This document shows, piece after piece, positions 11,395 through 30,580 of a stretch of 64,000 bases of DNA. Below the pieces are notes generated by a model. It was not told the origin of the DNA. It saw only the letters and a program-made list of their open reading frames with translations, and did no database searches. The DNA is taken from the NCBI RefSeq assembly GCF_000384475.1, contig NZ_ARWB01000001.1, positions 2,979,039 to 3,043,038 on the forward strand, read 5' to 3'. The stretch comes from Methylopila sp. M107. Its GTDB lineage: Bacteria; Pseudomonadota; Alphaproteobacteria; Rhizobiales; Methylopilaceae. Position 1 is the stretch's first letter. Each line of letters starts with the position of its first letter. The translations under genes and the position numbers were made by a program.

Positions 11395-11585
11395 CGCGGC
11401 GCCGGGCGGGACGGGGGAGGGGAGGTTCCTCCTCCGCGAAAGCGGGGGAGGGGGACCATGCGTCAGCATGGTGGAGGGGGCGCGCTTCAGGATGAGGCTC
11501 TCGCGGAAGCGCACCCCCTACGCCCGCCCCCTCCACCGCCTCCGGCGGTCCCCTTCCCCGTGCGTTCCGCATGGAGGAGGATCAA
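11395..11585. repeat. REP-like inverted repeat, family E copy 2
   Basis: Arms of GAAAGCGGGGGAGGGGGACC with CATGCGTCAGCATGGTGGAG on one side and CCCCCTCCACCGCCTCCGGC on the other, with an internal GGTTCCTCCTCCGCG and GGAGGAGGATC. It has the same composition and architecture as 3660-3835. It lies upstream of the cobalamin riboswitch and is probably non-coding. Confidence 0.6.
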
Positions 11586-11721
11586 GAAGACCGGCGCTCA
11601 TGCGTTCGTCCCGCGCGGCGGCCGTCGGGCGGATTGTGTTTCGGAATTTTGTGCACTAGCGTTCCGACAGTCACCGGTTTGGCCGGAGGCTTCGATCACG
11701 TCGGCGCTTCGCGAGAAGCTT

Positions 11722-11924
11722 AATTGGGAACGCGGTGAGGGTGGTTCGTCCTCCAATTCCGCGGCTGTCCCTGCAACTGTAAGCGGCGAGTTCGATGCGC
11801 GCCGGAAGGCACTGGGCGAAAGCCCGGACGCCTCCTGCCACTGAGACAGGTTCCCCGCGACGGGAACAGTCTTGGGAAGGCAAGCGCATCGGGCGATGAC
11901 CCGCGAGCCAGGAGACCTGCCGAC
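11722..11924 (+). ncRNA. cobalamin (B12) riboswitch
   Basis: The conserved elements of the adenosylcobalamin aptamer occur in the right order: GGGAACGCGGTG at the 5' end, CCGCGGCTGTCCCTGCAACTG in the middle, AAGGCACTGG with GAAAGCC, then GAAGGCAAGCG, GATGACCCGCGAGCCAGGAG and ACCTGCC (the B12 box, about 11905-11922). It lies 186 bases upstream of a TonB-dependent receptor gene on the same strand, so B12 should repress that gene. Limits are set by eye to within about ten bases. Confidence 0.93.
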
Positions 11925-12109
11925 GTCTGATCGCTCTTGCCGCGGCCCAGGGGGTGGCCGGGGCGCGGCTTCGTCCGTCTGAGCGACAACGGTGCGGCTG
12001 GGGCCGCATCGGTTCGTTTGGGCCGGAGCGAATGCGCCGAACCGTCCCAGACGCGCCGACCGTCGCAAGCGGGCCCCCGCCGGAGTCGTGGCGCTCCGGG
12101 GACGAGTAG

Positions 12110-14389
12110 TTGAATTACACAGCGGAACTGCGTCTGGCGCTCGCAATCGCGGCGGGCCTCGGGCTGTGCGCGCCTGCGCGCGCTCAGGATGACGCCGGCG
12201 CCGACGGCGAGGCGACGCAGCTCGAGACCATCACGGTCACGGGGACGAAGCCCGAGCTGAAGGGCGTCCTGTCGCCCGGCGAGGTGTCGGTCGTCTATCC
12301 GGACGACGTGAAGGGCGAGCACAAGGCGCTGCCCGACCTGCTCGACCAGATCCCCGGCGTCTGGGCCCGGAGGGTCGCGGGCACCGGCCAGTATACGACG
12401 GCGAGCATTCGCGGCTCTTCGCCGAGCCAGGTGAACATCTACATCGACGGCGTGCCGTACAACACGGCGAGCGAGTCCGCGACGGACCTCTCGACCATTC
12501 CAATGTCGAACGTCGAGCGCGTCGAGGTCTATCGCGGCACGACGCCGGCGCGGTTCTCCGGCGCGCCGCTCGGCGGCGCCATCAACATCGTGACCAAGCG
12601 GCCGGACGCGGCGAAAACCAGCGTCTCGGCCGGCGCGCGCTCGTTCGGCGGGCGGCAGGCCTCGGGCAGCGTGAGCGCGCCGCTGCTCGGCGGTTCCGTG
12701 CTGTTCGGCGTCGACGCCGAGGAAAGCAAAGGCGACTTCAAGTATAGAAACTACACGGTGAGAGACCTTCGGGCGATCACCTTTCCGGACGGCGCGAAGC
12801 CGGACGATCCGGGTCTTCCGGTCAACAGGAGACGGTTGAACAACGCCTATGAGAAAGCCAACGGCGTTCTCAAATGGCAGAACGACAACCTGTTCGCGAA
12901 GTGGTCCTACAACGAGATGGAGCGCTTCATGCCGACGCGCGTCTCGCCATACAACTGGTCATGGGAAGACGCCGAAGGCGACCCCGGCATCGGGAGCCAG
13001 CGTCGCCGCCAGCGCATCGCGGAGCACAACGGCGCGGTCGGCTGGCGCGAGACCTATGGCGACCTGTCGCTTGGGCTGACCGGCACGTTCATGGACCAGT
13101 CGAAGCGCTACCGGAACCTCGACGCCTTCGCGAACCAGGGCGTCGGAACACTCTGGTCGGACTACCGCACGAGACGCTACGGGATCGCGGGCGACGCCGG
13201 CTACGAGTTTGGCAAGGAGGGACCGCTCGGCCACAGGTTCGAGGTCCACGCCGAGTATCTGCGGGAGACGCTCTACGCCGACGCCAACGACCGCATCTCC
13301 TCGAGCGGCTACGAGACCGACCTGTTCACGCGCTTTCCGCGAGAACGCGGCACGATCCAGGCGCAGGACACGATCACCATCCGCCCGCTCGGCGACCTGC
13401 AGATCACGCCGGTCGGCCGCCTGGAGAAGCTGCAGGGCCCCATCCTCGGCAGCCGCCTGTCGCCGCTCGGCGGGGCCGAGGGCGACTATGGCTGGAAGCC
13501 GACCCATGGGCTGAGCGCCAAGAAGCAGCTGCTCGACGGCTGGGAAGCATTCGCCAATACCGGCACGTATAACCGGTATCCGAGCTTCTACGAGATCTAC
13601 GGCGACGGCGTCTATATTTCGCCCAACATCGACAGCGCCGGCAGGGTGCGGCAGCTCAAGCGCGAACACGGCCGCAACTTCGACGCCGGCCTCGGCTGGA
13701 CGGGCGCGCTCGCGGGCGACTGGAAGGGCGGCTTCCGGCTGACCTATTTCCAGCGCAAGACCCAGGACGCGATCACCTTCTTCGAGACGCCCGTCGGCTC
13801 GAAATACATCAATTCCGGCACGACCTTCACGCGCGGGCTGGAGTTCGAGGGGAACATCGCCTTCGGCGACCGGGCGGACCTGCATCTCGCAGGCACGGTG
13901 CAGGAGGGCCGCTACGTCAAGGGCACCTACTACACGTTCGGCGCGATCGACGCGGCCGAGCGCGTCGACGGCAAGCTGAAGGTCCTGCAGATCCCGGACT
14001 TCAGCGCCAACGCGCGGCTCAACCTGCACTTCCTGGACGGCGCGCTCACCACGTTCGCCGAGGTGCGCCACGTCGGCAACGTCTACTACGCCCAGTTTTC
14101 CGACGGGCAGACCTATGACGAGCCGCTGACGACCATCGACGTCGGAGCGCATTACAAATTCCAGAACGGTCTGAAGACCTCTGCCGGCGTGATCGACATG
14201 TTCGATCGGGGCCCGAAGCAGAGAATGAGCGACTATCAGAAGCTCATCTACGACTACTGCACGCCGAGCGCATCGAACGACTGCATGGATCCGAACACAT
14301 GGCCGCAATATCGAAAAAACATGCGGCCTAACGTGTCCTATCCGCAGCAGGGCCGCACGCTCTACCTCTCAGCTGGAATGACGTTCTGA
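12110..14389 (+). CDS. btuB: TonB-dependent receptor, predicted B12 transporter
   Basis: A 759-residue outer-membrane receptor. A signal peptide ending around APARAQD is followed by a TonB-box-like ETITVTG (about 39-45), a plug domain with LLDQIPGVWARRVAG, IRGSSPSQVNIYIDGVPYN and VERVEVYRGTTPARF, then a C-terminal beta-barrel ending in phenylalanine. The start codon is TTG, forced by an in-frame TAG just before it, and GGGGACGAG upstream could serve as ribosome site. The cobalamin riboswitch directly upstream argues for corrinoid import. Two secreted proteins and a BtuF-like protein follow on the same strand. Confidence 0.85.
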   Translation: MNYTAELRLALAIAAGLGLCAPARAQDDAGADGEATQLETITVTGTKPELKGVLSPGEVSVVYPDDVKGEHKALPDLLDQIPGVWARRVAGTGQYTTASIRGSSPSQVNIYIDGVPYNTASESATDLSTIPMSNVERVEVYRGTTPARFSGAPLGGAINIVTKRPDAAKTSVSAGARSFGGRQASGSVSAPLLGGSVLFGVDAEESKGDFKYRNYTVRDLRAITFPDGAKPDDPGLPVNRRRLNNAYEKANGVLKWQNDNLFAKWSYNEMERFMPTRVSPYNWSWEDAEGDPGIGSQRRRQRIAEHNGAVGWRETYGDLSLGLTGTFMDQSKRYRNLDAFANQGVGTLWSDYRTRRYGIAGDAGYEFGKEGPLGHRFEVHAEYLRETLYADANDRISSSGYETDLFTRFPRERGTIQAQDTITIRPLGDLQITPVGRLEKLQGPILGSRLSPLGGAEGDYGWKPTHGLSAKKQLLDGWEAFANTGTYNRYPSFYEIYGDGVYISPNIDSAGRVRQLKREHGRNFDAGLGWTGALAGDWKGGFRLTYFQRKTQDAITFFETPVGSKYINSGTTFTRGLEFEGNIAFGDRADLHLAGTVQEGRYVKGTYYTFGAIDAAERVDGKLKVLQIPDFSANARLNLHFLDGALTTFAEVRHVGNVYYAQFSDGQTYDEPLTTIDVGAHYKFQNGLKTSAGVIDMFDRGPKQRMSDYQKLIYDYCTPSASNDCMDPNTWPQYRKNMRPNVSYPQQGRTLYLSAGMTF

Positions 14390-14464
14390 GCGGCGGACGG
14401 CTTTCGCGCGTCACGGCCCAGCGGTTTCCAACACCCGACTCGCAACAACTAGTGGAGATACACA

Positions 14465-15883
14465 ATGTCGACCAGTCTTCCGTTTCGTTCGAACGCTGGA
14501 CCCGCGGCCGGGCGGTCCCGCACGGGGCTCATCCGAACCGCCATCGCGGCGGGCTTCGCGGCGCTGGGCTTCGGCCTGTCGTCGGCGCCGGCGGCGGCCG
14601 ACGGCTACGCCGCCTACACGGTCTACACCTATAACGGCACGCCGCGCGGCATGGCCGGCCGCATCCGGGACAGCGGCGGAAGCTCGATCACGCCGATCCG
14701 CAACCTGAAGACCGGCCTCAACGCCGACCCGCAGGTCGAGGGCGTGACGCTGAGCGGCGGCGGACTGCGCATCGCCGTCACCAACCGCGTCGCGCCTCCC
14801 GGCGCCGTGCCGCCGACGAACATCTACAACGCGACGCCGGCCGGTACGTCCCCGTCGCTGTTCGCCCCGACATGGACGAACGTCCGGAACATGTACGGCC
14901 TCGTGCGGGTCGGCTCCTATCTCTACGCGCTCGACTACGACAACGCCCGCGTGGTCGAGATCAACCCGACGAACTTCACGCAGACCGGCGTCACCTACAC
15001 GTTGCCGGCGAGCCTGACGCCGAGCGGCTACGTCGCGCACGCCCAGGCGATCACCGAGATCGGCGGCAAGCTCTACGGGCTGTTCACCTTCGCGGACAGC
15101 TCGTGGTCGTCCTACGCGAACAGCATGGTGGTGCGCTTCACCCTCACGGGCGGCAGCTCGATCACGGTCGGCGCGAACGACCGCAACAGCGGCTTCGTCG
15201 GCAACGGCTTCAAGCTCGCGGTGAACGGGGCGGATCTCTATGTCGCGGGATTGGGCGGCGCCCAGGTCGGGGGAAGCTACAACGTCAACTCGAAGCTGCA
15301 GAAGATCGCCCACGGCGCCGTCAACCTCACCACCGCGACGGTGACGAACGTGCTCGCGCCGAGCGCGGCCAACCCGTACGAGATCCGCGACATCAGCTTC
15401 AAGGGATCTACCGCCTACGTGCTGTGGGGCGCCTATGACAGCGGCTTCCAGATGAGGGGTAAGCTGACCAGCACCACGAACTACACCAGCTTCACGACCA
15501 TCAACAGCTTCACGGCCGGCGCGCCGGGCTACTACTGGGCGGCGCAATACACGCCGGAGAACGACCGCATCTGGTTCGTGCGCGGCAACCAGATCCTGGT
15601 CTACACGGCCGCGAGCCCGGCCACGCCCGCGGCCACGCTCTCGCTGACGGCCGGCAGCCTGATCTCGACCGGCGACGGCTACGACAACATCAACGACTTC
15701 ACCTATGTCGGCGCGACCTCCGGCGCCGCCGTTGCGATCCGCGGCTATCGCTCGCCGACGCAGATCTCCCAGAGCCCGCGCGGACAGGCGGCGCGCGAGA
15801 TCGCGCAAGGCCGTCCCGAACTGACGCCTGCGGAGCGGCGGCAGGTCGAGCAGGAACTGTCGCGATCGTCGACCGGCCAGTGA
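14465..15883 (+). CDS. secreted propeller-like protein of unknown function, B12 locus (copy 1)
   Basis: A 472-residue protein with an N-terminal signal sequence (about residues 20-46, ending APAAADG). I do not recognise the family by name. The mature part contains repeated strand pairs of the kind seen in beta-propeller blades, for example YLYALDYDNARVVEIN, KLYGLFTF, DLYVAGLGG, AYVLWGAYDSG and RIWFVRGNQILVY, giving perhaps six or seven blades. A charged helical tail (RGQAAREIAQGRPELTPAER) ends the protein. There is no lipobox. It lies 75 bases after the B12-regulated receptor gene and is followed by a close paralogue, so a role in corrinoid capture at the cell surface or periplasm is a reasonable inference, not a demonstration. 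Confidence 0.72.
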   Translation: MSTSLPFRSNAGPAAGRSRTGLIRTAIAAGFAALGFGLSSAPAAADGYAAYTVYTYNGTPRGMAGRIRDSGGSSITPIRNLKTGLNADPQVEGVTLSGGGLRIAVTNRVAPPGAVPPTNIYNATPAGTSPSLFAPTWTNVRNMYGLVRVGSYLYALDYDNARVVEINPTNFTQTGVTYTLPASLTPSGYVAHAQAITEIGGKLYGLFTFADSSWSSYANSMVVRFTLTGGSSITVGANDRNSGFVGNGFKLAVNGADLYVAGLGGAQVGGSYNVNSKLQKIAHGAVNLTTATVTNVLAPSAANPYEIRDISFKGSTAYVLWGAYDSGFQMRGKLTSTTNYTSFTTINSFTAGAPGYYWAAQYTPENDRIWFVRGNQILVYTAASPATPAATLSLTAGSLISTGDGYDNINDFTYVGATSGAAVAIRGYRSPTQISQSPRGQAAREIAQGRPELTPAERRQVEQELSRSSTGQ

Positions 15884-15933
15884 GGCCCGCCCGACCGTAG
15901 GCGCCGCCCCGGCGCGAAAACCTCCCGAGAGAT

Positions 15934-15967
15934 GCGCTGCGGCGTCCGTTCCGGACAGCCGCAGCGC
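15934..15967 (+). other. intercistronic hairpin between the two paralogues
   Basis: GCGCTGCGGC and GCCGCAGCGC form a perfect 10-bp stem with a 14-base loop in the 128 bases between the two propeller-like genes. No T tract follows, so it may stabilise or process the mRNA rather than terminate it. Confidence 0.5.
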
Positions 15968-16011
15968 CGTAAGACATCACGCCCTCAAGCCAAGCAAGGG
16001 AACAACCGAAC

Positions 16012-17448
16012 ATGACGACGGATCTCGCGGACGACGCCCTGGCGCGCATCGCACGGAATTTCATGGCTTCGCTCCGGACCGGCGCACTGGCGCGGCGGGC
16101 GCTTGTCGCGCTCGCTGCGCTCGGCCTCGCGGCCGCGCCGTCCCTCGCGAGCGCGCAGAACGCTCAGAACAGCTATGCGGCCTATACGGTCTACACTTAT
16201 GTCGGCGGACCGAAGGGCATGGCCGGCCGCATCCGGGACGGCGGAGGAAGCGCCGTCACCCCGATCCGCAACCTGAAGACCGGCCTCAACGCCGACCCGC
16301 AGGTGGAAGGGCTGATGTCGGACGCCGGCAAAGCGCGGATCGCCGTGACCAACCGCGTCGCGGCGCCCGGCGCGGTCGGGCCGACAGCCATCTACAATGC
16401 GGCGTCCGCCTCGAACCCGGCGCCGCTGTTCACCCGCAGCTGGACCAATGTGCGGAACATGTCCGGCCTCGTGAGAGCCGGCAAATATCTCTATGCGCTC
16501 GACTATGACAACGCCCGGGTGGTCGAGATCAACCGGTCGAACTTCAAGGAGACCGGCGTCACCTATACGCTGCCGGCCGATCTCGTCCCGAAGGGGTTTG
16601 CGGCCTACGGGCAGGCGATCGTCGAGATCGACGGGACGCTGTTCGGGCTGTTCACCTTCACGGACAGCGCCTTCGCGACCTACAGGGAAAGCCTGCTGGT
16701 CCGCTTCACGATCAAGGGCGGAAGCTCGATCAAGGTGGGGAAACAGGACGTCAACAAGAAGCTGGTCAAGAACGCCTTCGCGCTCGCGGTCAGCGGGTCC
16801 GACCTCTATGTCGCGGGCATCGGCGGGGCGCAGAGCGGCGGCGCCTACAATCCGGCCTCGCGCCTGCAGAAGATCACGTACGGGGCGAAGAACCTGAAGA
16901 AGGCGGAAGTCACGGACGTGCTCGCCCCGAGCGCCCAGAACCCCTACGAGATCCGCGACGTCAGCTTCAAGGGATCGACCGCCTACATCCTTCTCGGCGC
17001 CTATGACGCGGGCTTCACGCTGCGGGGCAAGCTCGTCAGCACCAAGGATTTCGCGAGCCTCAAGACGATCAACGACTTCACCTCCGGCGCGCCGGGCTAC
17101 TTCTGGGCGGCGCAGTACACGGCCGAAAACGACCGCATCTGGTTTGGGCGCGGAAGCGAGATCCTGGTCTACGACGCCTCGAGCACGGCGACGCCCGCGG
17201 CGACGCTCGCCCTGAAGCCCGGCAGCCTGATCTCGACGGGCGACGTCTATGACAACATCAACGACTTCGCATTCGTCGGCGCCAAGGGGTCGACCAAGTC
17301 GATCCGCGGCTATCGTTCGCCCACGCAGCTCTCCCAGAGCCCGCGCGCGCAGGCGGCCCGCGCGATCGCCGAGGGCCGGCCGGAACTGACCGCCGACGAA
17401 CGCCGTCGCGTGGACGAGGCCCTGTCCGGCGCGCCCGCGGGCCGGTGA
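16012..17448 (+). CDS. secreted propeller-like protein of unknown function, B12 locus (copy 2)
   Basis: A 478-residue paralogue of the protein at 14465-15883, strongly similar along its whole length: shared segments include AAYTVYTY, KGMAGRIRD, NLKTGLNADPQVEG, LYALDYDNARVVEIN, NPYEIRD and DNINDF. The signal sequence is around residues 18-49 (ends SLASAQN); a start at the ATG at 16063 is also possible. The C-terminal tail with SPTQLSQSPRAQAARAIAEG is conserved too. Copy 2 is richer in lysine (for example KKLVKNAF, KNLKKAE) than copy 1, so the pair seems to be diverging rather than newly duplicated. Confidence 0.72.
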   Translation: MTTDLADDALARIARNFMASLRTGALARRALVALAALGLAAAPSLASAQNAQNSYAAYTVYTYVGGPKGMAGRIRDGGGSAVTPIRNLKTGLNADPQVEGLMSDAGKARIAVTNRVAAPGAVGPTAIYNAASASNPAPLFTRSWTNVRNMSGLVRAGKYLYALDYDNARVVEINRSNFKETGVTYTLPADLVPKGFAAYGQAIVEIDGTLFGLFTFTDSAFATYRESLLVRFTIKGGSSIKVGKQDVNKKLVKNAFALAVSGSDLYVAGIGGAQSGGAYNPASRLQKITYGAKNLKKAEVTDVLAPSAQNPYEIRDVSFKGSTAYILLGAYDAGFTLRGKLVSTKDFASLKTINDFTSGAPGYFWAAQYTAENDRIWFGRGSEILVYDASSTATPAATLALKPGSLISTGDVYDNINDFAFVGAKGSTKSIRGYRSPTQLSQSPRAQAARAIAEGRPELTADERRRVDEALSGAPAGR

Positions 17449-17642
17449 GGCCGCCGCCTTCACCTCTCCCCGGCGGGGAGAGGTGAAGATCGGCGCCCGG
17501 TTCTGAAGTGATGAGCGGCGCGCTGGCGCTCCAATTGAATGGGCGGCGCGAGCGGCAGATGCTGACGAGCGCCGCTTCATCTGAACAGCGCCTCCGCTGG
17601 GGAGGCGGAATGGGCGTCCGAACGTGCGCAAGAGGAGGCCTG

Positions 17643-18428
17643 ATGCGCAGCTTTCCGCCCCAACGCATCGTCTGTCTGACGGAGGAGACGGTCGAGACGC
17701 TCTATCTCCTCGGCGAGGAGGACCGGATCGTCGGGGTTTCGGGCTATGCGGTCAGGCCCGCGCGGGTCCGGCGCGAGAAGCCGCGCGTCTCGGCCTTCAC
17801 CTCCGCGGACATCCCGAAAATCCTCGCGCTGAAGCCTGACCTCGTCTTCGCGTTCTCGGATCTGCAGGCCGACATCGCGGCGGAGCTGATCCGCGCCGGC
17901 GTCCACGTGCATGCCTTCAACCATCGCGACGTCGCCGGCATCCTGGCGATGATCCGCTGCGTCGGGGCGCTGGTCGGCGCCGGCGAACGCGCCGAACGGC
18001 TCGCCGCGTCCTATGAAGCGCGGCTGGACGAGGTCCGGGAAGCGACCGCGACCATTGCGCGGCCAAGGGTCTATTTCGAGGAGTGGGAAGGCCCGCTGAT
18101 CAGCGGGATCGGCTGGGTTTCAGAACTCGTCGCGATCGCGGGCGGCGACGACGTCTTCGCCGACCTGTCCGGCTGCGCGGCCGCGAAGGACAGGATCGTC
18201 ACGCAAGAACAGGTTCTGGCGTCGATGCCCGACGTGATCCTTGCGTCCTGGTGCGGGAAAAAGGTCGTTCCGGAGAAGATCAGGGCGCGCGATGGCTGGG
18301 GCGCCATTCCGGCCGTGCGCGACGGGCGGATCTTCGAGATCAAATCGCCGCTCATCCTGCAGCCGGGGCCTGCGGCGCTGACCGACGGCCTCGACGCCAT
18401 CCGACGCGCGCTCGCTCTGCGGCCGTGA
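17643..18428 (+). CDS. BtuF-like cobalamin-binding protein without a signal peptide
   Basis: A 261-residue class III periplasmic-binding-protein fold (COG0614) with RIVCLTEETVETLYLLGEED at the N-terminus, IPKILALKPDLVFAF and VYFEEWEGPLISGIGWVSEL, typical of B12-binding BtuF-like proteins. The start chosen has AGAGGAGG upstream. No signal peptide is visible, and the upstream in-frame sequence does not look like one either, so either export is unusual or the protein acts in the cytoplasm. It lies 194 bases after the second propeller gene, on the same strand, in the B12-riboswitch locus. No BtuC or BtuD gene is in the window. Confidence 0.8.
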   Translation: MRSFPPQRIVCLTEETVETLYLLGEEDRIVGVSGYAVRPARVRREKPRVSAFTSADIPKILALKPDLVFAFSDLQADIAAELIRAGVHVHAFNHRDVAGILAMIRCVGALVGAGERAERLAASYEARLDEVREATATIARPRVYFEEWEGPLISGIGWVSELVAIAGGDDVFADLSGCAAAKDRIVTQEQVLASMPDVILASWCGKKVVPEKIRARDGWGAIPAVRDGRIFEIKSPLILQPGPAALTDGLDAIRRALALRP

Positions 18429-18892
18429 CGCCACGTGAGGTCGCCGGCTGGCGAGCCACAGGGCGCCTAGCGCATGATGCGACTGGCTCAGGCTGTCATC
18501 GCCGCGCTTGACCCGGCGATCCATCGGCCGCGGCCTGCCTGATGGACGCCTGGATCAGGTCCACGAGTGTCCGTTCAGCTTCGATTCCCTTAAGCCATTG
18601 TCTGATAACGGAAACCCCCTCACCCGGCCCTCCGGGCCGACCTCTCCCCACAGGGGAGAGGTGGACGGCGGCGCCGCTTCTTCTTCACCTCTCCTCTGTG
18701 GGGAGAGGTCGGATGACTGAAAGTCATCCGGGTGAGGGGGCGGGCGGCTTCAAGGTCAAGCGGTCAGCTTCTGCGTAAAAACGACCGGACACGCGTGGAT
18801 CAAGTCCGGGCATGACGTGATGGTTTGACCTGAAGTCAGCACGCTCTCAGCGGCGACGACGGCCGCCGGCCGAGCCGATTGGCGCCTTAGGC
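18429..18892. repeat. repeat-rich intergenic region
   Basis: This 464 bp gap holds no credible gene. It has a REP-like palindrome at about 18494-18560 (TCATCGCCGCGCTTGACCCGGCGATCCAT), a CTCTCCCC/GGGGAGAG element at 18610-18745 (ACCTCTCCCCACAGGGGAGAGG and ACCTCTCCTCTGTGGGGAGAGG), and a half palindrome GGATCAAGTCCGGGCATGACG at about 18797-18817. It separates the B12 locus from the convergent small gene at 18893. Confidence 0.6.
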
Positions 18893-27748: not shown

Positions 27749-28668
27749 CGCTCAAGCGGGCGGCGGGTCACCCCGCCGCCCGCGCGGACTGCAAGACGAC
27801 GCGCCGCGGCCTCATCATCGGGGCCGCGGCGTTCGGCGTTCTGGCCGGGCGGCCCGTGCGCGCCGACGGTCCCGAGCGCCTCGCCGCGATCGACTGGGCG
27901 ATGCTGGAAACCGCGCTTGCGCTCGGCGCGACGCCGGTGGCGGCGGCCGAACTCCTGCTGTTCCGCAAATACGCCGTCGAGCCCGCGGTTCCGGACGGCG
28001 TCGCCGATCTCGGCCTGCGCGGCGCGCTGAGCTACGAGCAACTGGTCGCGTCGCGGCCGGACCTCATCCTGATCTCGCCCTGGTACCAGAACCGCGCGCA
28101 CATCCTTTCCCGCATCGCGCCGGTCGAAAACCTCGCGATCTACCAGTCGGGCCGCCCGCCTTACGAGGCCGCGGTCGCCGCCACCCGGGCGCTGGCCACG
28201 CGGATCGGCCGCGAGGCGGAGGCCGAGCGCGTCGTCGCGGAAGCCGACGCCGAGCTCGACGTCACGCGCGAGAGGCTGAAACCTTTCGCCGGCCGGCCCA
28301 TGCTCTTGATGAACCTCGGCGACGTCCGCCATTTTCGCGCGTTCGGGGCCGACAGCATGTTTGGCGACGTCGCCGCGCGACTCGGACTTGGCGTCGCCTG
28401 GACGGCGCCGACCCGCTTCGGCGCCTATCCGACGGTCGGCGTCGAGGCGCTCGCGACGATGGCGGACGCGACCGTCGTCAATATCGGGCCGACGCCGCCC
28501 TCAGCGCTCGACGGCCTGCGCGACAGCCCGCTCTGGCGCGTGATGCCGCCGATCGCGGCCGGCCGCTTCGTCAACCTCGACCCCGTCAATCCCTATGGCG
28601 CCCTGCCGGCGGCGCGCCGCTTCGCGCGGCTGCTGGCCGACGGGCTGGCGACGTTCGCGAATGGCTGA
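27742..28668 (+). CDS. ferric-siderophore ABC transporter substrate-binding protein (FhuD-like)
   Basis: A 308-residue class III binding protein. The N-terminus carries a twin-arginine signal (TTRRGLIIGAAAFG), as in FhuD. The fold signature includes DWAMLETALALG, LVASRPDLILIS and DSMFGDVAARLGLG. The GTG start overlaps the receptor stop by seven bases, and the 3' end overlaps the permease gene by eight bases, so the three genes are translationally coupled. It would deliver a ferric hydroxamate siderophore to the fused permease. Confidence 0.87.
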   Translation: MVTLKRAAGHPAARADCKTTRRGLIIGAAAFGVLAGRPVRADGPERLAAIDWAMLETALALGATPVAAAELLLFRKYAVEPAVPDGVADLGLRGALSYEQLVASRPDLILISPWYQNRAHILSRIAPVENLAIYQSGRPPYEAAVAATRALATRIGREAEAERVVAEADAELDVTRERLKPFAGRPMLLMNLGDVRHFRAFGADSMFGDVAARLGLGVAWTAPTRFGAYPTVGVEALATMADATVVNIGPTPPSALDGLRDSPLWRVMPPIAAGRFVNLDPVNPYGALPAARRFARLLADGLATFANG

Positions 28669-30580
28669 GGCCGGAACGGCGTCGCGCCTTGCGCCCTGGC
28701 TGATCTGGGGCGCGCTCGCCGCCCTCGCGGCGGCGCTCTCGCTCGACCAGATTTTGGGCCTCGCAGCGCGCGGCGGGAGCGACATCGACCACGCGCTGTT
28801 CGTCTACAGCCTCGCGCCCCGGATCGCGGTCGCAATCGTGGCGGGCGCGGCGCTCGGGCTGTCCGGCGCGCTGCTGCAGGCCGCGCTCGACAACCCACTC
28901 GCCGAACCCTCGACGCTCGGCGTGTTCGCCGGCGCGCAGCTCGCGCTCGGGGCCATCAGCGTCTTCGCGCCGGCGCTCGGCGCGTTCGGGCGCGAGGCCG
29001 CGGCGCTCTGCGGCGGCGCAGGGGCGGCCGCGCTCGTGCTCGCGCTCGGCTGGCGGCGGAAGCTCGATCCCGTCACCGTCGTGCTCTGCGGCATGGTCGT
29101 GGCGATGGTCGCGAGTTCGCTCACCGCCGCGTTGATCCTCGCGCGCGGCGAATATCTGTTCGCGCTGCTGATCTGGGGCGGCGGCTCGCTCGCGCAGGAG
29201 GGCTGGCGCGCGACCGGCGCGATCGCCGCCGTCCTCGTCGTCGGAGCGTTCGCCACGCTTGTCCTGATCCGCCCGCTGGCGACGCTGGCGGCCGGCGAGG
29301 CGAGCGCCCGAAGCCTCGGCGCCCCCGCGCCGCTGATCCGGATCTCTGCGCTCGGGGTCGGCGTGCTGCTCGCGACCACCGTCGCGGCCGAGGTTGGGCT
29401 GATCGCCTTCGTCGGGCTCGCGGCGCCGACGCTGGCGCGGCTTTCGGGCGCGCGGTCCTGGCGGACGCTTGCCGTCGCGCCCGTCATCGGCGCCATCCTG
29501 CTGTGGCTCACCGACTCGCTCGTGCGCCATCTCGGCTCCGGCGAGACGATACCGGCGGGCGCGGCGACGGCGCTCCTTGGCGCGCCGCTGCTGCTCTGGC
29601 TGCTGCCGCGCCTCCACCTCGCCGACCGGCCCGCGAGCGAGCGGGCGCCGCGTCGCCGGGCGCCGAGAAACGTGCTGATCGCGCTCGCGGCGCTGTTCGT
29701 CCTCGCCTCCGTCGCCGCGCTCACGATCGGCGCGGCAAGCGGGGCGGGCTTCGTCGAGCTGCTGCCGTTCCGCGCCCCACGCACGGCTGCAGCCGCCGCG
29801 TCCGGCGCCATGCTGGCGGCGGCCGGCGTCATCCTGCAGCGCCTGACCGGGAACCCGATCGCAGGGCCCGAGGTGCTCGGCGTCGGGGCGGGGGCGGGGG
29901 TGGGCCTCGCGGTCGTGCTGGTGGCGGCGGGATCGGCCTCGTTCGGGCTCCAGACGCTCGGCGCGGCGCTCGGCGCGCTAGGCGCGCTCGGCCTGATCCT
30001 CGGCGTCGCGGGCCGCGACCGGCTCGGGCCGGAGCGCATGCTGCTCGCGGGCGCGGGGATCTCGGCGCTCTGCCTCGCCGGCCTCAACGCCGTGATCGCG
30101 ACCGGCTCGCCGAGCGCCTTCGCGCTGCTCGCCTGGATTACGGGCGCGACCGACGCGATCGACGGGTCGCAGGCGATCATGGCGGTCGTCGCAACCGTCG
30201 CCATCGCGGCCCCGGTCGCGCTGACGCTGCGGTGGCTTGAGGTGCTGCCGCTTGGGCCTGCCGTCTCGCGCTCAGTCGGCCTCAACGTCGCGGCCGCGCG
30301 GGCGGCGCTGACGGGGCTGGCCGCCCTGCTGACGGGAGCCGCCGCTCTTGTCGCGGGGCCATTGAGCTTCGTCGGACTCGTGGCGCCGCATGCGGTGCGG
30401 GCGCTCGGCCTTGCGCGGCCCGGTCCCCATCTCGTCGGCGCGATGCTGGCGGGCGCCGCGCTGATGGTCGCGGCCGACCAGCTCGCCCGCACGGTCATCT
30501 TCCCCTACCAGCTGCCGCTCGGCCTGTTCGCTTCGCTGATCGGCGGCGGCTACCTGCTGTTCGTCCTCGGGCGGCGGTGA
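28661..30580 (+). CDS. fused ABC siderophore permease (FhuB-like)
   Basis: A 639-residue protein made of two FecCD-type permease halves in tandem, as in FhuB. Each half shows the AxxGxSGALLQ family pattern (about 60-75 and again near 390, AASGAMLAAAGVILQRL), and the cytoplasmic GLIAFVGLAAPTLAR and GPLSFVGLVAPHAVRAL loops contact the ATPase. The start at ATG 28661 overlaps the binding-protein gene. No ATP-binding subunit (FhuC) lies next to it, which is unusual; one must be encoded elsewhere. Confidence 0.88.
   Translation: MAEAGTASRLAPWLIWGALAALAAALSLDQILGLAARGGSDIDHALFVYSLAPRIAVAIVAGAALGLSGALLQAALDNPLAEPSTLGVFAGAQLALGAISVFAPALGAFGREAAALCGGAGAAALVLALGWRRKLDPVTVVLCGMVVAMVASSLTAALILARGEYLFALLIWGGGSLAQEGWRATGAIAAVLVVGAFATLVLIRPLATLAAGEASARSLGAPAPLIRISALGVGVLLATTVAAEVGLIAFVGLAAPTLARLSGARSWRTLAVAPVIGAILLWLTDSLVRHLGSGETIPAGAATALLGAPLLLWLLPRLHLADRPASERAPRRRAPRNVLIALAALFVLASVAALTIGAASGAGFVELLPFRAPRTAAAAASGAMLAAAGVILQRLTGNPIAGPEVLGVGAGAGVGLAVVLVAAGSASFGLQTLGAALGALGALGLILGVAGRDRLGPERMLLAGAGISALCLAGLNAVIATGSPSAFALLAWITGATDAIDGSQAIMAVVATVAIAAPVALTLRWLEVLPLGPAVSRSVGLNVAAARAALTGLAALLTGAAALVAGPLSFVGLVAPHAVRALGLARPGPHLVGAMLAGAALMVAADQLARTVIFPYQLPLGLFASLIGGGYLLFVLGRR

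Follow-up and report, generated by a model that had tools for sequence, protein, structure and literature searches.

A cobalamin-riboswitch locus of Methylopila sp. M107 encoding a BtuB-like receptor and two predicted BtuG-like propellers

In this report, we focus on a cobalamin (vitamin B12) riboswitch locus in a 64,000-nucleotide stretch of the Methylopila sp. M107 genome (the window, by which we mean this whole stretch), where a TonB-dependent receptor (TBDT) is encoded beside two predicted propeller proteins, here named P1 and P2. The forward strand carries, in this order, the riboswitch, the TBDT gene, the P1 and P2 genes, and a BtuF-like gene, with intergenic gaps of 75 (TBDT–P1), 128 (P1–P2), and 194 bases (P2–BtuF-like gene), in agreement with the single-strand arrangement described in the initial annotation of this DNA. 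The B12 aptamer claimed there was also recovered: cmscan places a full-length RF00174 cobalamin riboswitch at 11687–11938 (+), with 90.9 bits against a gathering threshold of 31.5, an E-value of 3.2e-21, and a complete model match (1–189), and the start given earlier, 11722, falls within it. This is one of two RF00174 elements in the genome; the other lies ahead of genes read from sequence as CbtA, CobU, CobW, CobN, and CobO, suggesting that the organism probably also makes cobalamin. Simple scans of 11500–18700 returned one promoter-like site (0.5 expected) and two terminator-like sites (4.2 expected); a terminator-like hairpin at 11990–12011, between the aptamer and the TBDT gene, could belong to the switch, the terminator-like count there being no higher than chance.

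The receptor (12110–14389, +) comprises 759 residues from the listed TTG, unproven as the true start, and matches both the Plug (PF07715) and TonB barrel (PF00593) domains. Its closest solved structure by sequence in the PDB is Escherichia coli BtuB, through the plug region alone. Among NCBIfam models, it reaches 109.8 bits with TonB-hemin (cut-off 316.85) and 94 bits with TonB-B12, TIGR01779 (cut-off 599.7), both below threshold.

P1 (14465–15883, +; 472 residues) and P2 (16012–17448, +; 478 residues) are tandem paralogues with 69% identity over 429 aligned residues, and both begin with Sec-like N-termini as judged by hydropathy, with no signal-peptide program, which bears out the earlier claim of two similar signal-peptide proteins. 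The putative signal peptide of P1 (14465–14599, +) contains the hydrophobic stretch AIAAGFAALGFGL (mean hydropathy 1.96), and that of P2 (16012–16155, +) the stretch ALVALAALGLAAA (mean hydropathy 2.43), with cleavage sites placed by eye, in P2 between ASA and Q. Neither protein has any cysteine, and a lipobox cysteine is accordingly absent from both. Each ends in a C-terminal tail, which in P1 (RGYRSP...GRPEL; 15740–15880, +) lies past the propeller, the VIA-align matches to BtuG stopping at model residues 372–378, and which in P2 (17305–17445, +) is conserved in the family alignments A1 and A2.

The initial annotation had suggested a propeller fold, to be checked by structure prediction, and the AF2 model of P1 (pLDDT 82.2, pTM 0.86) is a fairly confident predicted propeller, with seven blades by manual count from the predicted strand list. 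The ten best VIA-align entries for this model are all of the BtuG type, aligned over model residues 1–378 with 9–14% identity in the structural alignments, and BtuG entries also stand above the AztD structures (ranks 24, 27, and 31) in the Foldseek list. The P2 model is weak (pLDDT 58.5); BtuG entries rank 1–3 for it in VIA-align, but first appear at rank 7 in Foldseek. At the sequence level, searches of Pfam and NCBIfam with the P1/P2 family gave no enzyme family and stray sub-cut-off matches alone, and a profile search of the PDB returned two LRP2 sequences alone (E 0.27–0.28). PF16819, a propeller model that we infer to be BtuG's own, matched none of the 11 members of alignment A3 at E 10, a search in which HMMER filters drop most weak matches. 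In excerpts of PMC13398666, PF16819 is mentioned as a neighbour of DUF4465. Among the first 50 matches listed from a viral fold library, only generic propellers and unnamed proteins were present.

Propellers of this family were found in a total of 12 loci in 12 genomes, the window's included (other loci are numbered with L below), spanning Alphaproteobacteria, Betaproteobacteria, and one Negativicute, Sporomusa termitida. In 11/11 testable loci (the window, all seven loci from a pattern scan, L030, L031, and Sporomusa), an RF00174 element precedes these genes on their own strand, and the refuting outcome named at the start, homologues mostly outside B12 loci, was not observed; the twelfth, L032, starts inside its TBDT gene at a contig edge, with no RF00174 in the sequence present. 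A TBDT gene stands immediately upstream of the propeller gene in all 12 loci (its frame broken in L006 and L008), at a distance of 75–134 bases in the 10 loci measured (L008 and L032 left out). With TBDT starts chosen by us, the riboswitch precedes the TBDT by 144–221 bases in nine loci and, with an OmpH-like gene in between, by 720 in Sporomusa. Aligned pieces of the window TBDT share 43–71% identity with these receptors in nine loci, 36% in L032, and 33% in Sporomusa. A second riboswitch in L006 (9519–9743), directly after the propeller gene, was not counted, as it precedes NrdD-like and NrdB-like genes, named from sequence and apparently encoding ribonucleotide reductases of the anaerobic and the aerobic type. 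In Chenggangzhangella methanolivorans (L008:5672–9267), neither the TBDT nor the propeller has an intact frame, and in L006 the TBDT frame is interrupted, which may reflect either sequencing errors or pseudogenes.

By contrast, B12 riboswitches themselves are common in the window's family, Methylopilaceae, occurring at 43 sites in 18/18 genomes. Comparison of 29 of these sites, each spanning 1.5 kb past the riboswitch and so covering the front of a TBDT only (propellers being tested by the family-wide genome search), yielded 12 with a TBDT whose identity, along part of its length, does not exceed about 35%, seven with CbtA, and ten without a query match. Additionally, an Aminobacter plasmid TBDT from the search that led to Sporomusa has a riboswitch, and the genes after it are annotated as substrate-binding protein, permease, and ATPase; none of its neighbours carries a propeller-like annotation.

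The propellers themselves are rare. When whole genomes were searched with P2 or with profiles of the family, and with the query genome counted, relatives were present in 2/18 genomes of Methylopilaceae, 2/397 of the window's order (its own included), 1/398 of a phylum sample, 5/199 and 4/141 of the families of the L005 and L007 genomes (overlapping sets), 2/120 of the family of the Methylobacillus genome, 1/219 of that of the Novosphingobium genome, and 2/6 genomes within one genus. In the class sample, 2/385 genomes matched, but the frame of one hit, G903 (E 2.3e-4), was by eye unlike the family and was rejected, leaving a genuine count of 1/385, the window's own. A pattern scan of genome contigs from 84,980 species, which detects close relatives only, matched 33 stretches, seven of which encode a propeller relative, while viral contigs scanned with alignment A1 gave 37 pattern matches and no relative, and tblastn of plasmids with P2, or with its tail alone, gave no match. 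The paired locus is thus an infrequent find in the order for which a survey had been suggested, and the system is not alphaproteobacterial alone, as had been proposed, since Betaproteobacteria and one Negativicute also carry it. Trees unite the window with Novosphingobium (support 100/100 for the TBDT and 97/96 for the propeller), and a claim of gene transfer was dropped; the inner forks differ or are weak, and therefore only the alpha/beta split is congruent between them. L008, with its broken frame, and the Sporomusa locus (L068) are absent from both trees and from alignments A1–A3, and the TBDT tree also excludes L006 (broken frame) and L032 (truncated).

The Sporomusa locus was reached through the receptor: tblastn of plasmids with the window TBDT hit 1115 records, and the only one covering at least 80% of the query in a single place was S. 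termitida pSPTER (of the 15 matches listed, this one and H3 were examined). Here, three tandem RF00174 aptamers (L068:2967–4079; 100.8–106.3 bits) are followed by the OmpH-like gene, a 1776-residue receptor protein, and a 444-residue unnamed protein. The receptor protein (L068:4800–10130) combines an ESPR, an autotransporter beta-domain, a Plug, and a TonB barrel, i.e., two outer-membrane barrels in one chain; the Novosphingobium TBDT (L004:4591–7911) has about 290 extra residues with a weak OMP_b-brl match (E 0.0034, 18 bits, cut-off 28.7). The 444-residue protein aligns with the family profile over 288 columns (hhalign probability 97.9%, E 3.9e-13) and scores 63.5 bits in hmmsearch, where the highest score among 1000 shuffles was 7.2. 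The protein is without the RGYRSP tail motif, contains one cysteine and 35% S/T/N/G/Y (outside the family means given below), and shows no clear signal peptide at its annotated start; as the frame stays open for 47 codons further upstream, a longer form is possible. Plasmid tblastn with this propeller found itself alone, and with the receptor part of its neighbour 205 records, of which only itself exceeded 80% query coverage.

We consider it reasonably probable that these genes form an operon for corrinoid scavenging under B12 control, in which the propellers would pass corrinoid to the receptor in the manner of the BtuG lid. Under corrinoid scarcity, the riboswitch would permit expression of the BtuB-like receptor and both propellers, which would leave the cytoplasm, in the window via Sec. 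They may then bind corrinoids on one face and, placed at the surface in contact with the TBDT, deliver them to it, a task that falls to the BtuG lid in Bacteroides, with the conserved tail perhaps docking to the receptor or keeping the protein at the surface. What the computations show are the riboswitch, the order of the genes, the similarity in fold, the linkage across the family, and the absence of a lipoprotein cysteine. We conclude that P1 and P2 most likely do BtuG's work; by sequence and anchoring, they are not BtuG members. The earlier suggestion that they may be a BtuG analogue or a periplasmic corrinoid carrier gains support from the propeller fold and the linkage to B12 loci. A limit on the scavenging reading is that both proteins are basic overall, and an argument from surface charge fails for the window, whereas 7/9 leaderless relatives are acidic (pI 4.3–5.1).

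An alternative that we regard as unlikely, while the best of the rivals, is a periplasmic corrinoid chaperone that receives corrinoid inside the TBDT and passes it to a BtuF/BtuCD importer. The Sec-like signals without a lipobox make the periplasm the default address of P1 and P2, and AztD, a propeller that passes zinc on in its own pathway, is among the Foldseek matches, albeit ranked below BtuG. The BtuF-like gene at the end of the operon (17643–18428, +) encodes a PF01497 protein (E 1.9e-43) whose top PDB match is a vitamin B12-binding protein; its frame is open from 17508, and ATG 17643, with a good Shine–Dalgarno (SD) site, is the likely start. From neither this ATG nor GTG 17508 is a hydrophobic leader visible (by hydropathy, with no signal-peptide program), and the protein thus appears to lack a signal peptide. 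No BtuC-like gene was found directly behind the operon, where the next gene tested is ExoD-like and on the opposite strand. Among the loci scanned, many of them short or at contig edges, a BtuF-like gene occurs in L003 and L009 alone, upstream and on the opposite strand; the copies in the two Methylobacillus loci are 57% identical to that of the window, leaderless as listed, and beside a CobU-like gene. In the Methylobacillus cobalamin cluster, a CobN-family protein (L003:10073–14395) has an N-terminal signal-like stretch, unusual for a cytoplasmic chelatase subunit. Separately, a 661-residue double FecCD permease (window 28595–30580), 10 kb downstream of the operon, is perhaps part of a siderophore importer.

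It is also conceivable, and in our view improbable, that the family is cytoplasmic, serving as a corrinoid store or post-uptake chaperone, and was moved to the periplasm in the window's lineage. Nine proteobacterial relatives outside the window's family have no residues ahead of the propeller core, and their ATG is preceded by an SD-like site; in L009, a stop codon adjoins the ATG on its upstream side. Their maximal 13-residue hydropathy within the first 60 residues is 0.33–1.42, compared with 1.96 in P1 and 2.43 in P2, and the open frames upstream of their ATGs nowhere exceed 1.39; the broken L008 propeller gene has a Sec-like leader in another frame. Every relative outside the window is also a single copy, and therefore the initial description of two tandem secreted paralogues fits the window genome alone. 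Composition points the other way: 8/11 family members are cysteine-free and the other three contain a single one, and the family averages 0.06 cysteines per 100 residues and 41% S/T/N/G/Y, versus 0.97 and 22% in 15 presumed cytosolic proteins that we picked from the same loci (two of which, both CobO-like, also lack cysteine) and 0.32 cysteines in four TBDTs. The S/T/N/G/Y excess may be partly due to the propeller fold; together, these features favour a family that works beyond the cytoplasm, for which the leaderless forms would need some export route. Furthermore, core and tail are retained in forms with Sec-like signals. The tail (38–47 residues) is, over its first 36 columns, somewhat more conserved than the propeller (mean 75% vs 71%; invariant columns 36% vs 22%) in 11 proteobacterial rows without Sporomusa, its last six columns not being conserved. 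Since members with Sec-like signals keep the tail, docking or anchoring appears at least as likely a role for it as an export signal. An enzymatic role under B12 co-regulation, as a lactonase-like or other propeller with corrinoids or something else as substrate, is very improbable, given the lack of any Pfam or NCBIfam enzyme family and the TBDT pairing in 12/12 loci.

A broader and tentative extension of the scavenging reading is a cross-phylum corrinoid-capture module, in which the propeller would be exported without a Sec signal in most members as a B12 counterpart of hemophores, some TBDTs would be fused to a second barrel that displays or releases it, and the window's lineage would have switched to Sec and duplicated the gene. 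Corrinoids are shared goods of microbial communities, and a TBDT-dedicated capture protein has so far been described in Bacteroidota; in excerpts of PMC6143338, BtuG is reported as exclusive to that phylum, no homologues outside Bacteroidetes having turned up when 313 strains from the human gut were surveyed by BlastP. Among the matches listed by full-text searches, with most subscription journals and preprints not covered, none describes such propellers outside Bacteroidota. If true, a proteobacterial and Negativicute counterpart would imply that the design of a propeller beside a B12 receptor is wider, possibly of multiple origin, and would raise the question of how leaderless members get outside.

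Known systems resemble this locus to different degrees. The window receptor shares with E. coli BtuB the TBDT architecture and the plug, yet it is longer (759 residues vs 594 in the BtuB chain), its barrel is left unaligned by phmmer, and it falls under the BtuB equivalog cut-off (TIGR01779) given above. For the leaderless relatives, the closest functional parallel would be the HasA hemophore, which is exported without a leader to capture a ligand for a TBDT and whose fold and ligand are unrelated to those of the propellers; unlike HasA, P1 and P2 carry Sec-like signals, and no type I exporter was noticed by eye beside the propeller genes in the open reading frame lists, no genome-wide search being made. 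XusB, whose chains appear at ranks 22 and 42 of the P2 VIA-align list, is a Bacteroides surface protein partnering a TBDT, but differs in being a lipoprotein with a siderophore ligand, according to excerpts of PMC13142918. In E. coli, corrinoid uptake relies on BtuB with BtuF/BtuCD, and in Bacteroides, the seven-bladed lipoprotein BtuG sits on BtuB as a cap and has a very high affinity for corrinoids, as excerpts of PMC10404256 and PMC6143338 describe. While P1 and P2 lie outside Bacteroidota and differ from BtuG (BT1954, BT2095, and relatives) in their low structural identity, the lack of a Pfam hit and of a lipobox cysteine, the family's Sec-like signal or absence of any, and the extra conserved tail, BtuG entries are the structures best aligned to the P1 model, and both systems, as far as these excerpts go, combine a seven-bladed propeller (predicted in P1), a neighbouring btuB-like gene, and a B12 riboswitch.
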